A stretch of 64,000 nt of DNA, from NCBI RefSeq assembly GCF_003071365.1, contig NZ_CP028960.1, forward strand, positions 558,001-622,000. Reading direction: 5' to 3'. Below the pieces are notes generated by a model. The model was given only the letters and a program-made list of their open reading frames with translations. It was not told where the DNA came from and made no database searches. Source of the stretch: Methyloceanibacter sp. wino2 (GTDB taxonomy: Bacteria > Pseudomonadota > Alphaproteobacteria > Rhizobiales > Methyloligellaceae). Shown here in pieces: positions 61 to 18,535 of the stretch. Position numbers and translations under genes: made by a program. Numbering within the stretch: position 1 is the stretch's first letter; each line of letters starts with the position of its first letter.

Positions 61-230
61 GGGCGCGCCAAAACCCCCGCTGCCGTCCGGCACCAGGTTC
101 CTCAAACTCCCTACGTCTCAAAACTCAAACCCGCGAAGCGGGACGTGCGGGGCGCTGGTCGGCCGCCGTCCGTTTAGTTTTGGTGGGCAGCCTTCCGGCG
201 CCCCGCATGGCCTTTGGACAGTGCTTCGCA

Positions 231-257
231 TACAATAACAAAACCGAGCGAAGCTCG
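231..257 (-). terminator. Possible minus-strand intrinsic terminator
   Basis: A 5-bp stem (CGAGC/GCTCG, 245-257) with a GAA loop is followed on the minus strand by GTTTTGTTATTG. The stem is short, so this is weak evidence for termination of an unidentified minus-strand transcript. Confidence 0.25.
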
Positions 258-628
258 CCTCAAGGCCGCAGCGATGTTTTAGAGCCCCATGCCGCGCGGC
301 TTACCTCCAGTGGCACAGGCACGCGCGAACGCGCGCCTCACCCGACGACCCACGCGTTACAGCGCAGGTGGGCGGATTAGGGACCCCCGAGGCTGGTCCG
401 TTAGCCGCGACGCGGTTTTCCGGCACCGGCCTCCACTGAGACTTCGACACCATCCGTACCGCGCCACCTCGGGCGCTGCATCCCCCGCCCCGAGAGCAGA
501 CGGTCTGCAGCTCGCGTCCTCACGAACGAGGGATGGAGGCAGTGTACGGCCGGTTTCGGGGGGTGGGGATAAGGGGTGATTAACTAGGTCGGCGGCCGGT
601 AGCGCCGAGAAAGAAGGAATACATCGTC

Positions 629-657
629 TTGAATCTGACAATTATGTTCTCTATATG
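629..657 (+). promoter_or_regulatory. Predicted sigma-70 promoter of the nucleotide/UDG operon
   Basis: TTGAAT (629-634) is separated by 17 bp from TATATG (652-657), a reasonable -35/-10 pair about 100 bp upstream of the first gene. The LexA-type direct repeat lies between and over these elements, so a bound repressor would block RNA polymerase. Confidence 0.5.
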
Positions 658-660
658 TTC
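646..660 (+). promoter_or_regulatory. LexA (SOS) box, alphaproteobacterial GTTC-N7-GTTC type
   Basis: GTTC (646-649), seven bases, then GTTC (657-660). This is exactly the direct-repeat operator known for alphaproteobacterial LexA, which differs from the palindromic CTG-N10-CAG box of gammaproteobacteria. It overlaps the predicted -10 of the operon starting at 764. The inference is that the operon is repressed by LexA and induced by DNA damage. An 8-base match in a fixed spacing can occur by chance, but its position is ideal. Confidence 0.6.
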
Positions 661-763
661 TGGGGACGAATGTGTTGAATGGGCTTTCCCAAGCGTTTCT
701 GGCGCTAAAATTAGCAGTGATTCGTATGCTCTACCTGCGCGATCTCAGTCGGAAAAGGCCACC

Positions 764-1264
764 ATGTTTTCAGATGAGGACTTCTTACAGCTCCAGAAGG
801 ACCAGTACGCTCATGATGTGCGGCACCACTCAGATATCACATCACTGCACAAGACGGAGCGTCTCAAACACTACGGTCTCCATTTCGCGAAGTATGTGGG
901 GCGATTGGCAAGGGAAGCAGAAGAGTCCAAGCCGATCGAACGAACACTTGTGGATGCATTCCTCATTAGCCTCAGCGCAGCGAACACCCTCCACCAGAGA
1001 CTCGGCGACGGAGAGAGGAGCCCACAGCGAAGCAGAAGGCAAGTTGATCCTCTTCGGACCTTAGCGGATGCTGTTGGTCGATTTGCGGATGCTTGCGAAA
1101 AGATTGATCACCTCGAAGAGTTCGTCGCCCTCGCACGAAGGGCCAACGTTGATGTGATGCATTGGATTGTAGACGCTGCCGACGAGCGCTCCCTTGATTT
1201 GGTCTCAGCTGCGACGGATAGAAGGAAAGAGCTGAAGGCTCGTTGCTTCTACCTCGACAACTAA
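764..1264 (+). CDS. All-alpha MazG-like protein, first gene of the nucleotide/UDG operon
   Basis: A 166-residue, mostly helical soluble protein. The N-terminal half carries HK-ERLKHYGLHFAKY-GRLARE (about residues 29-51) and then a helix with E59..D64 in ERTLVDAFLISLSAANTL, which resembles the ExxD metal-binding helix of MazG-like NTP pyrophosphohydrolases. Assignment to that superfamily is by eye and tentative; the usual EExxE first motif is not clear. I chose ATG 764, after GGAAAAGG, rather than TTG 629, because the residues encoded before 764 look unlike protein and the promoter and LexA box fall there. The next gene starts 19 bp downstream. If MazG-like, it would hydrolyse (d)NTPs, which fits the pyrimidine theme of its neighbours. 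Confidence 0.6.
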   Translation: MFSDEDFLQLQKDQYAHDVRHHSDITSLHKTERLKHYGLHFAKYVGRLAREAEESKPIERTLVDAFLISLSAANTLHQRLGDGERSPQRSRRQVDPLRTLADAVGRFADACEKIDHLEEFVALARRANVDVMHWIVDAADERSLDLVSAATDRRKELKARCFYLDN

Positions 1265-1283
1265 TTCAACGAAGGGAGGCCCG

Positions 1284-2048
1284 ATGCCATTTTGGAGTGG
1301 GGAGACCTTGTTACGGGAGCTCCCTTCCATAGTCACAGAGGGCTACGATCCCGACAGGGTCGATTGCGCCGCATACACCCTTCGCATGGGTTCAGAGGCC
1401 TATGTTTCTCCATCTGAGGCGGAACAGGATCCAAAAAAAATAACTATCCAGCAAATCGGACGTGCCGGCGCCTTTACGATCCCCCCTGGACAATTTGCAT
1501 TCCTACTCACCGAGGAACACATCAAGATCCCTCAAGGTGCCATAGGATTCATCTCGATAAAGACTCGCATCAAGTTTCGCGGGCTTGTGAACGTCTCTGG
1601 TTTTCACGTTGATCCTGGCTACTCTGGTCGCCTCATCTTTGCTGTGTTCAACGCCGGTCCTAGGCCTATTCACCTTAGGCGTGGAGATGAATGTTTTTTG
1701 ATGTGGCTAGCGAGCCTCGACGATCCAAATACCAAGATGATACGAGACAAAGATGGCTTTAATTCCATCAACACGGACTTGGTATCCAAGATCAGCGGCC
1801 CTGTAATGTCATTTGAGGGTCTGAACGCAAAAATTGGCGACTTGAAAAAGGACTATGACAAGCGGATCGGAACCATTGAGCTGCAGAACGCAATAATTAA
1901 ATGGGCTGCGATGGCAATATTTGCCATTTTGATTGGCGTTGTCGTTACACCGACAATCCGCGGTGCGTGGCAGGACTGGAGTTCCCCGAACGATGGCGCT
2001 TTGGCGCCTGGTCAAACAAGTCAAGCCAAGGACAACAAGGAACGGTAG
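1284..2048 (+). CDS. dCTP deaminase/dUTPase-fold protein with C-terminal coiled coil and transmembrane helix
   Basis: 254 residues, after a strong AGGGAGG site. Residues 60-145 match the dCTP deaminase/dUTPase trimer fold: FAFLLTEEHIKIP, GFISIKTRIKFRGLVNVSG, HVDPGYSGRLIFAVFNAGP and IHLRRGDECFLMWLA correspond in order to the E. coli Dcd blocks. In my by-eye alignment the catalytic Glu of Dcd (Glu138, in LEFYN) is Ala120, and the Arg/Ser of RSSLARLG are not kept, so the domain may bind nucleotides without deaminating them. Residues 177-203 look like a coiled coil, and about 206-225 form one transmembrane helix with a short polar tail. Ordinary Dcd (about 190 residues) lacks these parts. A membrane-tethered nucleotide sensor is an inference; a diverged active enzyme remains possible. 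Confidence 0.75.
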   Translation: MPFWSGETLLRELPSIVTEGYDPDRVDCAAYTLRMGSEAYVSPSEAEQDPKKITIQQIGRAGAFTIPPGQFAFLLTEEHIKIPQGAIGFISIKTRIKFRGLVNVSGFHVDPGYSGRLIFAVFNAGPRPIHLRRGDECFLMWLASLDDPNTKMIRDKDGFNSINTDLVSKISGPVMSFEGLNAKIGDLKKDYDKRIGTIELQNAIIKWAAMAIFAILIGVVVTPTIRGAWQDWSSPNDGALAPGQTSQAKDNKER

Positions 2049-2056
2049 CTCCGCGC

Positions 2057-2761
2057 ATGCCAACTCTGATTACATCTACGGATGAGTTGGAAGCATGGAA
2101 GTTAGGTGTTCGAGAGATTGTCGGGTCGCGCGGCGAGGCGTTTCACCTCGTAACTGAGATCACCAATCCAAGTGGGTCACAAACACCTAACCTTCACATC
2201 TATGACGGTCGACAAGTCCCGTCTGGAAAGGATTCTGTCGCTGGCGTTTCATCCACAATATGCCCCTATCGCTTCTACCCACCATCCGCTGACAGACAAG
2301 ACTTCTATGACCGTGCAGTCACATTTTTGGACCGGCTGAGGCGTCGGCATCTGATGTTTTCAAATTGGGGGGAAACGTACTTTGAAAGGCTGTTGGCATT
2401 TCATGGCACTGCGAACCAACTAGAAGTCGCGATAGAGAAGATGAGAACGTGGACGCGGAGTTCGCGGACGGGGTTAGTGTTTCATCTTTCAGCACCAACA
2501 TTAGATCCTCCACGCACGCGTGGTGGACCGTGTCTGCAATTCATTGAGTTGCTTTGGCATGCAAACGGCACGGTGGACTTGGCGGCGGTCTATCGAAACC
2601 ATGACTTCATCGATAAGGCGCTGGGCAACTTTGTTGGTTTGGCGGACCTGCAAAGGTTCATTTGCTCGGAAACTGGAAAGCAGACGGGTAGGTTGGTCTG
2701 CCACTCGATGCATGCTTATGTCTCCAGCCAACAAGATGCGCGGACGCTAGCCAATATATGA
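2057..2761 (+). CDS. Thymidylate-synthase-fold protein (divergent)
   Basis: 234 residues, slightly shorter than ThyA (about 264). The C-terminal half follows the ThyA active-site order: GGPC (Cys159, nucleophile position), 21 residues later Arg180-Asn-His-Asp183 (ThyA R166-S-C-D169), Asn191 (ThyA N177) and His219-Ala-Tyr221 (ThyA H207-x-Y209). These are the residues that hold dUMP. The His that follows the catalytic Cys in ThyA (PCH) is Leu here, and the N-terminal folate/phosphate region is poorly matched. It may methylate or hydroxymethylate a pyrimidine nucleotide, or only bind it. It starts 8 bp after the previous stop with a weak ribosome site and overlaps the next gene by ATGA, so translation is probably coupled. 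Confidence 0.65.
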   Translation: MPTLITSTDELEAWKLGVREIVGSRGEAFHLVTEITNPSGSQTPNLHIYDGRQVPSGKDSVAGVSSTICPYRFYPPSADRQDFYDRAVTFLDRLRRRHLMFSNWGETYFERLLAFHGTANQLEVAIEKMRTWTRSSRTGLVFHLSAPTLDPPRTRGGPCLQFIELLWHANGTVDLAAVYRNHDFIDKALGNFVGLADLQRFICSETGKQTGRLVCHSMHAYVSSQQDARTLANI

Positions 2762-3864
2762 GAGCGCCAGAACCTCAGACTCTAAGTGACCTGATTGAGC
2801 AGGTGCGTATCTGTCGCCAATGCGACCGGATGCAGAACAGCAGTCGAATTTTCGGTCATTCGAGCGGCTACGTGAGTGCGCCCGTGATGTTCATCGGCGA
2901 GGCACCTGGGCGCCTCGGAGCCGATGCATCCGCGATACCATTTCACGGTGACCAGGCGGGAGAAAACTTCGAGAACCTAATCGAACAAGCCGGCCTCAGT
3001 CGATACGATTGCTTCATCACAAATGCTGTGCTGTGCAACCCAAGGGATACGAAGGGAAACAACGCAACACCGAGCCGTGGTGAGGTCGTCAACTGCTCTA
3101 GGTTTCTCAAGCGTCAGATAGACCTAGTTGATCCCAAGATTGTCGTGACTCTCGGCCGACAAGCTCTGCAGGCTCTGAGACTCGTCGAGGACCACAGCGT
3201 CGCCTTGGCAGAAGGCGTGCGGCAGAAATGGCACTGGTATGGGCGACAGTTGATCCCACTCTATCACCCAGGCCAACGCGCCCTGATCCACAGAAGCTTC
3301 TTGAATCAGCTCGCTGACTATAGGTTCGTTGCGGAGTCCTTGCGGCGTTTGAGGTCGCCTAAACGTGCCACTACAACGGCTAGGCCTGCATCGCCCCCTG
3401 TATCGGCGATCGTCCGACAATTGCTCGGAGCGTGCGGCACTGTGAGCTACTTTGGCTTACATAAGCTATTTTACATGGTCGAGTACGAGCATTGCAGGCA
3501 CGCGGGCAAACGTATGACAACATGCTTCATACTGCGTCAGAAAGATGGGCCGTATGTCGCCGAGCTAAACATTCGAAGGATAAAAAAGGCCATTCCCGAG
3601 TTGCACATATCAACCGAGCAAGATCGGCTGTTTGTCAGCATTCCACATACAAGGTTATTTCCGGAAATCGAGGACGACAGCTTAAGAGACGGACTGCGGA
3701 ATGTCGTGCGTTCCGTTGCAGAGCGCTACTCGAAGTGCTCCGATGCAGAATTGAAGCGCATCGTGTACATGACCTCACCAATGCGGCAAATTCTTAGGAG
3801 GGAAAAATACAAACGCGAAAACCTGTTCAATGCACCCGTTGATTTCTCCAGCGCCTGTCGGTAA
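2758..3864 (+). CDS. Uracil-DNA glycosylase (family 4-like, Fe-S) fused to a Panacea-like domain
   Basis: 368 residues. Residues 8-200 are a family 4-type uracil-DNA glycosylase: Cys19 and Cys22, then Cys93 and Cys113, placed as the four 4Fe-4S ligands of that family; GEAPG (47-51), PFHGDQAGENF (61-71), TNAVLCNP (88-95) and YHPGQR (169-174) supply the uracil pocket and catalytic loops. After a Pro/Thr/Ala linker (about 201-215), residues 216-355 (KLFYMVEYEHCRHAGK, GPYVAEL, then a late helical part) resemble the SocA-like Panacea/DUF4065 fold found in antitoxins. That second assignment is tentative. Enzyme role: remove uracil from DNA. Context suggests control by, or partnership with, the nucleotide-binding neighbours. 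It overlaps the previous gene by 4 bp and ends the operon. Confidence 0.8.
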   Translation: MRAPEPQTLSDLIEQVRICRQCDRMQNSSRIFGHSSGYVSAPVMFIGEAPGRLGADASAIPFHGDQAGENFENLIEQAGLSRYDCFITNAVLCNPRDTKGNNATPSRGEVVNCSRFLKRQIDLVDPKIVVTLGRQALQALRLVEDHSVALAEGVRQKWHWYGRQLIPLYHPGQRALIHRSFLNQLADYRFVAESLRRLRSPKRATTTARPASPPVSAIVRQLLGACGTVSYFGLHKLFYMVEYEHCRHAGKRMTTCFILRQKDGPYVAELNIRRIKKAIPELHISTEQDRLFVSIPHTRLFPEIEDDSLRDGLRNVVRSVAERYSKCSDAELKRIVYMTSPMRQILRREKYKRENLFNAPVDFSSACR

Positions 3865-3928
3865 CTCGATCTTGTCCTGTCGCGGGCCTTAGTATCGGCA
3901 AGGCTTTCAGACCCCGGCGCCAAGCCCC

Positions 3929-4738
3929 CTACTCCGCCCCGACCGGCCCTTCGGTCTTCATGCGCTGGATGACCGCGTCGATCGGGTCCGGGGTGATGTG
4001 GACCGGGCCTGAGAACGGGAAGTTCAGGTGGATGGCGAGGAAGAAGGTCGCGCCGACGATCATGGCGAGGCCCGCCGTCATCAGCACTTGCGGGCCCACT
4101 TTCTGCGTGGCGAAGAAGGCGGGATAGGCGAGCGTGATGACGCCCCCGAGGACGAGCACGCCCCAGATGACCGGGGTCATGTGGCCGCCCACGTCCGAGA
4201 GCCGCTCCAGCCGCAAGTCCGCCGTCTGCTGCAACAGGTCGATGCCGTGCAGGATGGTCGGCATCAGGGCGAGATCGTTCGACTGGATCTGCCCCAGCGT
4301 GTAGCTCAGCTTCGCATAGGCCTCGGACGCCGCTTTGCTGCCGTGGCGGCCGATCTCCATCTGCGGCCAGTCGTCGTCGCGCACGGCGACCGCATAGACC
4401 ATCAGCGCACTGCGGATCTTCGCGCCGTCCGCTTCCGGATAGTTGTAGCTGTTGCGGTAGAGATTGTAGAAGCGCTCGGCCTCCGCATCGACGGCGTGCT
4501 TGGTGTCCTCGAACTCCTGCCACACGCCCACCACGACGAAGGCCAGCAGCACCGAATAGGCGACGCCGACCACGGCATATTTGAAGCCGGCGACCTCGTG
4601 ATTGGTGGCGATGACCTTGACGCCGAACGTCCAGCGGACCGCGAGCTGCAGCCCCACGCTGAAAGCTACGCTCGCGCCGATGACGAGGCTCGCGAGCAGC
4701 CAGACCGGCATCGCGTTGATGATCTCCAGACCGGTCAT
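3929..4738 (-). CDS. DUF4239 (bestrophin-like) membrane protein
   Basis: 269 residues with hydrophobic segments near 12-36, 51-71, 184-204 and 212-235, and a soluble helical middle portion (75-180) containing the EFEDTKHAVDAEAERFYNLY region typical of DUF4239 proteins. The family is predicted to be an inner-membrane protein of unknown function, distantly like bestrophin channels. It converges on the accessory operon and is separated from rpoD by the 4746-4910 repeat array, so it may be the first gene of the normal chromosomal background. Confidence 0.8.
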   Translation of the reverse strand: MTGLEIINAMPVWLLASLVIGASVAFSVGLQLAVRWTFGVKVIATNHEVAGFKYAVVGVAYSVLLAFVVVGVWQEFEDTKHAVDAEAERFYNLYRNSYNYPEADGAKIRSALMVYAVAVRDDDWPQMEIGRHGSKAASEAYAKLSYTLGQIQSNDLALMPTILHGIDLLQQTADLRLERLSDVGGHMTPVIWGVLVLGGVITLAYPAFFATQKVGPQVLMTAGLAMIVGATFFLAIHLNFPFSGPVHITPDPIDAVIQRMKTEGPVGAE

Positions 4739-17749: not shown

Positions 17750-18535
17750 CTAGAACTTGCGATAGAGGCCAACCGCGAGATAACCGCTCGGGTCGCTTAG
17801 GAGATAGTCGCCCGTAAAACCGCCCGACACGGTGGCCTCGAAAGCCTCGAACTTGCCGCGAACGAAAGCGCCACCGCGCCCCGCGTCGTATTCCTGATTG
17901 CCGAGCACACCGCCCTCGAGTCCGACCGCGAAGATCGGTCCCATGCGGCAGCCGATACGAGTGAGCTGCCAGTACTCCTGGAAGGCCGTGCCATAGGCGC
18001 CGTCCGCGGAGAGGAACCAGCGATCGGAGATGTCCGTCCAGGTCTCGAGCGTGAGCCTGAGACCGAGTTCCGTTCCTTGGACCGAGTTGTTCGGATCGAA
18101 CGGGGTGATGGATTGGTCGACGGCTTCGATGCCCGCGTAGGTACGCACGATTGTGCGGCCGCGATGGAACTCATACCCGGCCTGCACGGAGAGAAACGCG
18201 ACCTCACCGTCAAACGTGGTCCGGCGATAGGCGGCACCGTCGAACAGCGCACCGTCATAATCGTAGGGGCCCCAGGCCCCGACGGCCCGAAGCCGCCAGC
18301 CCGGCGCGTCAAACCCCTCGCCAAAGGCATAGCCGCCGCCAGCATAGATGCTCGTGTAGTTGTTGGCGGTCTCGACGCCGCCGAAGACTTCGCGCCGCGG
18401 CGCTGCCTCATCGGCCTTGGCGACACCGGCTGAGAACACGGCACCTGCGGCGACAGCGAGCAGGACACACGACCCGATGGCCAGGGCGCGGCGGGTAGCC
18501 TCACCCGCCGCGTCGCCTAGCCGGTCCGCCGTCAC
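17750..18535 (-). CDS. Cellulose biosynthesis protein BcsS family
   Basis: 261 residues from a GTG start. A signal peptide (about 16-42) is followed by a beta-rich domain with alternating aromatic and glycine residues (GGYAFGEGFDAPGWRLRAVG, AGYEFHRGRTIVRTYAGIEA, GLRLTLETWTDISDRWFLS) and a terminal LYRKF, which fits an outer-membrane or periplasmic barrel. This matches the BcsS family found with bacterial cellulose genes in Hyphomicrobiales. No bcsA, bcsB or bcsC is in the window, so the copy is an orphan and its role in cellulose is uncertain. Confidence 0.8.
   Translation of the reverse strand: MTADRLGDAAGEATRRALAIGSCVLLAVAAGAVFSAGVAKADEAAPRREVFGGVETANNYTSIYAGGGYAFGEGFDAPGWRLRAVGAWGPYDYDGALFDGAAYRRTTFDGEVAFLSVQAGYEFHRGRTIVRTYAGIEAVDQSITPFDPNNSVQGTELGLRLTLETWTDISDRWFLSADGAYGTAFQEYWQLTRIGCRMGPIFAVGLEGGVLGNQEYDAGRGGAFVRGKFEAFEATVSGGFTGDYLLSDPSGYLAVGLYRKF

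Follow-up and report, generated by a model that had tools for sequence, protein, structure and literature searches.

A predicted LexA operator ahead of an accessory nucleotide operon in Methyloceanibacter sp. wino2

The closest described regulatory system for the locus reported here is the Caulobacter-type LexA operator and SOS regulon. GTTCN7GTTC is the published motif of Caulobacter crescentus (PMC9578287, Table 1; PMC12700426). For the genes themselves, the nearest comparison is with nucleotide-centric conflict systems, which combine TS, 5-hmdU kinase, MazG-C, NMAD and UDG components. The DefensePredictor study describes TS and 5-hydroxymethyluracil kinase domains from defence systems that were tested, and MazG-C, dUTPase, NMAD and UDG from systems that were predicted, and the class of thymidine-hypermodification genes is partly shown to be active in phage defence (PMC13092281).

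We analysed a stretch of 64,000 nucleotides of the Methyloceanibacter sp. wino2 chromosome, hereafter the window, in which a GTTC-N7-GTTC box lies ahead of four genes (Table 1). The box resembles the Caulobacter-type operator in sequence class, AT-rich spacer and position at a promoter-like pair, and its apparent co-targets include lexA, recA and imuA. The predicted target differs: it is an accessory nucleotide operon, and a literature search, of limited reach on LexA, found neither such an operon as a LexA target nor any report of this operon itself. The operon shares TS-fold and UDG components with the conflict systems, and genes for HMUDK_hel, MazG_C, Nmad2 and TS-like proteins are neighbours of relatives of its second protein, P0001. 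Unlike those systems, however, the operon lacks HMUDK, MazG_C and Nmad, and has instead P0004, a UDG-Panacea protein and predicted LexA control. Overall, we consider it likely that LexA of the cell itself uses the box as an operator and that the operon is an SOS-induced accessory nucleotide operon related to conflict systems.

Table 1. Positions of the features discussed, in window coordinates
Feature	Position	Strand	Description or basis
Dispersed repeat of the genus	104..574	+	left edge of the variable segment; ends just ahead of the operon promoter region
Weak promoter-like pair TTGAAT-N17-TATATG	629..657	+	sequence; absent from promoter scan
LexA-type operator (predicted) GTTCTCTATATGTTC	646..660	+	sequence; matrix from relatives; lexA-only and recA-only matrices
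P0004	764..1264	+	166 aa; predicted all-alpha fold like dimeric dUTPases; no Pfam family
P0001	1284..2048	+	254 aa; dCTP deaminase/dUTPase-fold domain; C-terminal hydrophobic segment 203-221
P0002	2057..2761	+	234 aa; thymidylate synthase/dCMP hydroxymethylase fold; conserved Cys159
P0003	2758..3864	+	368 aa; family-4-like uracil-DNA glycosylase; SocA/Panacea-like C-terminal region

The box and its score among genomic motif copies

The initial annotation had placed a GTTC-N7-GTTC repeat inside the operon promoter, and the repeat was found in the sequence. It overlaps the -10 hexamer of a pair formed by TTGAAT (629-634) and, after 17 nt, TATATG (652-657). The hexamers, their spacing and the overlap all stood as described, but the promoter is weak, because each hexamer has four of the six sigma-70 consensus letters (8/12 together, by hand count) and a scan over 560-800 listed no promoter. 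The distance of about 100 bp to the operon also agrees with our reading, at 103 nt, if the first gene starts at the ATG at 764. A long frame is open from 629, but a purine-rich stretch precedes the start at 764, and several P0004 relatives start at the residue corresponding to it.

Counts of the bare motif were rejected as evidence. The wino2 genome (3,209,973 bases, one contig) holds 98 exact copies of GTTCN7GTTC, and the reversed control has 116, so the bare motif alone proves nothing. The window contains two copies against 2.45 expected, and the second, at 17849-17863, is within chance expectation. Outside genes lie 31 of the 98 copies, a rough figure because the crude gene caller overlooked both ImuA and the window operon with its low GC.

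The copies were instead scored with a matrix of 21 columns that was trained on related genomes, the genome itself excluded; it drew on 15 distinct operators of lexA and 16 of recA. The window box reached 29.3 bits and rank 1/98, level with the genome's own lexA operator (29.3), and was followed by the sites at recA (23.7), YifB/comM (23.2), L028 (19.7) and a PA0069-family radical SAM gene (L034; 17.6), and then by sites at 16.2 bits and lower; the next best 21-mer inside the window scored 17.3 bits. With a lexA-only matrix, and likewise with a recA-only matrix, it ranked 2/98, behind the genome's own site of the training type; with lexA-only training, this second place was far lower than the first (5.2 versus 19.9 for lexA). 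Its matrix score falls within the range of known operators. The ranks of the genome's own lexA and recA sites depend on the training, because the sites of congeners are alike; the window, comM and radical SAM sites have ranks that do not depend on it. The matrix is imperfect, as a probably real box at imuA scored 9.2 bits and ranked 25/98. When GTTC-N7-GTTC was held fixed and only spacer and flanks were randomised, the window score was reached in 11 of 5,000,000 draws at 63% GC and in 104 of 5,000,000 at 48% GC, and 0.0002-0.002 sites scoring like the window box are expected by chance among 98. In this genome, then, the bare motif reads as noise and the signal lies in spacer and flanks. The initial annotation had proposed such a genome-wide scoring and had named many equal-scoring sites away from promoters as a point against its reading; the bare motif does recur 98 times, but under the matrix no site except the lexA operator equals the window box.

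Two other boxes deserve a record of their own. The fifth-ranking site (L028 2157; G000:C1:870898) is intergenic, with no gene called nearby. Another, at L063 1501-1515 (G000:C1:2009293), has an all-AT spacer (GTTCATATTTTGTTC), lies ahead of a 145-aa frame and scores 9.1 bits.

By the boxes ahead of lexA and recA, the LexA of this lineage uses the motif. The genome encodes one LexA (TIGR00498 above cut-off; a single PF01726 match), and some 120 bp ahead of its gene lies a GTTC-N7-GTTC box. LexA was present in 30/30 family genomes examined, and the motif lies upstream of lexA in 29/29 usable loci (30 loci, minus L229 with its short upstream DNA) and upstream of recA in 20/23 (seven further loci, L275-L281, were partial or not RecA and were left out), the wino2 genome being included in all three counts. 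Its own recA, whose product was identified by PF00154, carries the motif too, as do YifB/comM, ImuA and the PA0069-family radical SAM gene. In family scans the last is above its cut-off, the YifB/ComM match is partial and below cut-off, and the ImuA match, for which the cut-off is 150, reaches 38.6 bits; after ImuA, whose box lies 10 nt ahead of the start, come genes for a Y-family-polymerase-like protein and an error-prone polymerase, which is the imuA-imuB-dnaE2 order. comM is an SOS gene elsewhere. Separately, the YifB/ComM-like frame (L052 1576-2289; G000:C1 near 1540876), which stands behind a good LexA-type box, stops after about 217 of 499 profile positions and looks interrupted by an insertion or frameshift.

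Together with the published Caulobacter motif (PMC9578287, PMC12700426), the family counts uphold the assignment of this direct repeat to the LexA operator class. On sequence evidence, 646-660 is very probably a real LexA operator, and membership of the operon in the SOS regulon is well supported in silico, with the window site the best of the 98 by the independent matrix. From this predicted operator we infer that DNA damage would induce the operon. The initial annotation had tied the genes to DNA damage or phage replication. Given the first rank by matrix and the boxes at lexA and recA across the family, the tie to damage is well founded in silico, but that to phage draws only on the gene neighbours of relatives and on one paper.

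Four proteins with predicted folds of nucleotide metabolism

The four frames are tightly spaced, with gaps of 19 and 8 nt and then a 4-nt overlap. P0004 had no Pfam match, and its 26 relatives likewise lacked a consistent one. Its AlphaFold model (pLDDT 92.4) suggests a fold like that of the dimeric all-alpha dUTPases: the best 16 VIA rows, with Z of 9.8-11.8 against 6.6 for the next unrelated row, all belong to dUTPases (14 say so in their titles, and 5mil and 6h4b have titles on phage-inducible islands), although the tool itself notes that Z below about 13 is weak for helical models. It differs from those enzymes in having no sequence family match, and its best Foldseek E value is only 0.055. 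Two loci, L138 and L174, were left out of its alignment.

P0001 has a Pfam DCD domain (56.9 bits), and its profile matches solved Dcd chains, which relates it to the E. coli dCTP deaminase and trimeric dUTPase fold. In E. coli Dcd, a glutamate is catalytic. At that column, which was fixed by comparing 2j4h with the Ala mutant 1xs4, P0001 has Ala120, and Ala or Ser occupies it in 27/27 aligned sequences (26 of 78 loci were used). P0001 differs from the E. coli enzyme in this column and in its C-terminal hydrophobic segment, and it scores 65.8 bits against the equivalog TIGR02274, below the cut-off of 92.8. Of the enzyme names, 'dCTP deaminase' is weakened for a protein without the catalytic Glu. 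If the P0004 model is right, P0001 and P0004 would be two dUTPase-like proteins of unrelated folds.

For P0002, the best Foldseek matches were the phage dCMP hydroxylase AfhB (E 4.2e-10) and MilA, and then TS (1.7e-9). Its nucleophilic Cys is found in 12/12 aligned sequences (11 of 28 loci were used), and its score against the equivalog TIGR03283 is 62.2, below the cut-off of 174.55. P0003 matches Pfam UDG with 100.2 bits (cut-off 24.3) and falls below cut-off with the NCBIfam family-4 models. It has Cys 19, 22, 93 and 113, which we take to be the four Fe-S cysteines. Against PF13274 (SocA/Panacea; cut-off 25.7) it reaches 22.1 bits as a whole and 24.4 with the C-terminus alone, and its relatives L287 and L288 exceed that cut-off (49.7 and 52.4). 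Key residues are conserved in the P0004, P0001 and P0002 alignments. None of the four operon proteins matched a PADLOC family.

An accessory hotspot and the relatives of the operon

The operon has a GC content of mostly 0.46-0.60, against about 0.60-0.68 around it. Two congeners (L221, L222) share both flanks, which lie at about 104-574 and 3924-4500 of the window, and carry different genes in between, in segments of about 1.8 kb that lack a GTTCN7GTTC box. Window 575-3923 is thus an accessory hotspot. The repeat at its left edge is about 470 bp long, has a sharp right end (L292-L311 compared) and occurs in 12 of 17 genomes of the genus, with 4 matches in wino2 and 17 in G191. Lower-GC DNA (0.52-0.56 over 900 bp) follows seven of the nine long copies examined, often with ORFs in the same orientation, and the repeat may be a marker of places where accessory cassettes insert. 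A LexA-type box follows the window copy and none of 8 other long copies; the box therefore came with the window cassette or arose in it. Rfam gave no family at gathering score over the repeat; it found two tRNAs over the window, and only two weak sub-threshold matches over 2 kb around the upstream repeat.

A scan of genome contigs found at least 78 loci with P0001 relatives. These relatives are distant, come from varied phyla and include no true orthologous operon. In 28 of the 78 listed loci there is a P0004-like gene, which in 27 cases immediately precedes the P0001 relative, and 40 have an ORF like the L157 protein, which is HMUDK_hel-MazG-MazG_C. Other neighbours are TS-like (28), IrrE-like (27), XRE-like (25) and radical SAM (10) genes; these counts rest on BLAST similarity, because only representatives were scanned for families. 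P0001 relatives also adjoin Nmad2 genes and often thymidine-hypermodification genes, and the TS-like relative in L283 adjoins UDG-family and MazG_C proteins.

Across the 78 listed loci (849,342 bases), 12 sites score above 15 bits, and only two loci have such a site in the 500 bp that precede the P0001 relative, so LexA control appears to be local and not a family trait. One of the two is L114 (uncultured Rhodobacteraceae), with a 21.3-bit LexA-type box 401 bp upstream of a dCTP-deaminase-like gene; it is a possible second case of LexA control, which perhaps was gained more than once. The other is a 19.4-bit site in L154 (an Acidimicrobiaceae MAG); the box in L124 falls below 15 bits.

Among the matches listed in 297 genomes of the order, none other than the P0003 of wino2 passes residue 244, and of the plasmid records that match, 399 in number, none covers 80% of the protein. 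Its C-terminus occurs in 3 of 385 genomes of the class and P0002 in 4 of 385, wino2 included in both. A phage origin of the operon was considered and found no support: viral contigs gave one locus for the P0001 family, two for P0004 and none for P0003, and no phage record had P0002.

A proposed mechanism and its rivals

In the mechanism that we propose, LexA dimers bound to the direct repeat would cover the -10 region and keep the operon off. DNA damage would give rise to RecA filaments and LexA self-cleavage, and the operon would then be expressed together with lexA, recA and imuA-imuB-dnaE2. As a nucleotide module it would be accessory, spread by horizontal transfer and akin to the nucleotide-centric conflict systems. 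Its target may be dUTP or dTTP, or else uracil or modified thymine of DNA that is damaged or belongs to a phage.

Could the box be a chance match to which LexA does not bind? The excess of reversed motifs over the 98 bare copies and the rough intergenic share would fit such an account. Against it stand the first rank under an independent matrix, the tiny number of equal sites expected by chance and the position at a promoter-like pair ahead of an operon, and we regard a chance match as very improbable. The operator could also be real and its operon decayed or a passenger, with LexA control inherited from a mobile element and no present function. The single carrier of full-length P0003 among the matches listed in 297 genomes of the order and the lack of a LexA box in most relatives point in that direction. 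Four intact, tightly spaced frames and the conserved key residues argue against it, and we think this account improbable.

As to function, nucleotide-centric defence is our first guess and repair its main rival. Tentatively, it is possible that the operon is an SOS-triggered anti-phage module, in which LexA would sense the damage caused by phage replication and release a sensor, a partner, a TS-like enzyme and an effector. Their target would be uracil or modified thymine of the phage DNA, or they would starve its nucleotide pool. P0001 might then be a membrane-tethered dUTPase-like sensor, P0004 its unrelated dUTPase-like partner, and the UDG-Panacea protein the effector; toxin-antitoxin-like control through the Panacea tail possibly plays a part. 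Alternatively, LexA may control the operon for ordinary repair, through dUTP removal, dTMP supply and uracil excision, and not for phage defence. All four folds belong to dU/dT metabolism, and the same motif stands at imuA-imuB-dnaE2, recA and lexA, as repair would lead one to expect. Yet the operon is accessory and of lower GC, two congeners hold other genes in its place, a further UDG is encoded elsewhere in the genome (G000:C1:990764), the catalytic Glu is absent from P0001 and all sequences aligned with it, and the relatives cluster with modification- and defence-type genes. Repair seems to us rather unlikely.

If our favoured reading of an SOS-induced, LexA-controlled operon is true, a nucleotide-conflict module would stand directly under the cell's DNA-damage switch. 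It would also offer a testable route, through mitomycin C and RecA or LexA mutants, into a set of poorly understood genes that are partly shown to be active in phage defence.
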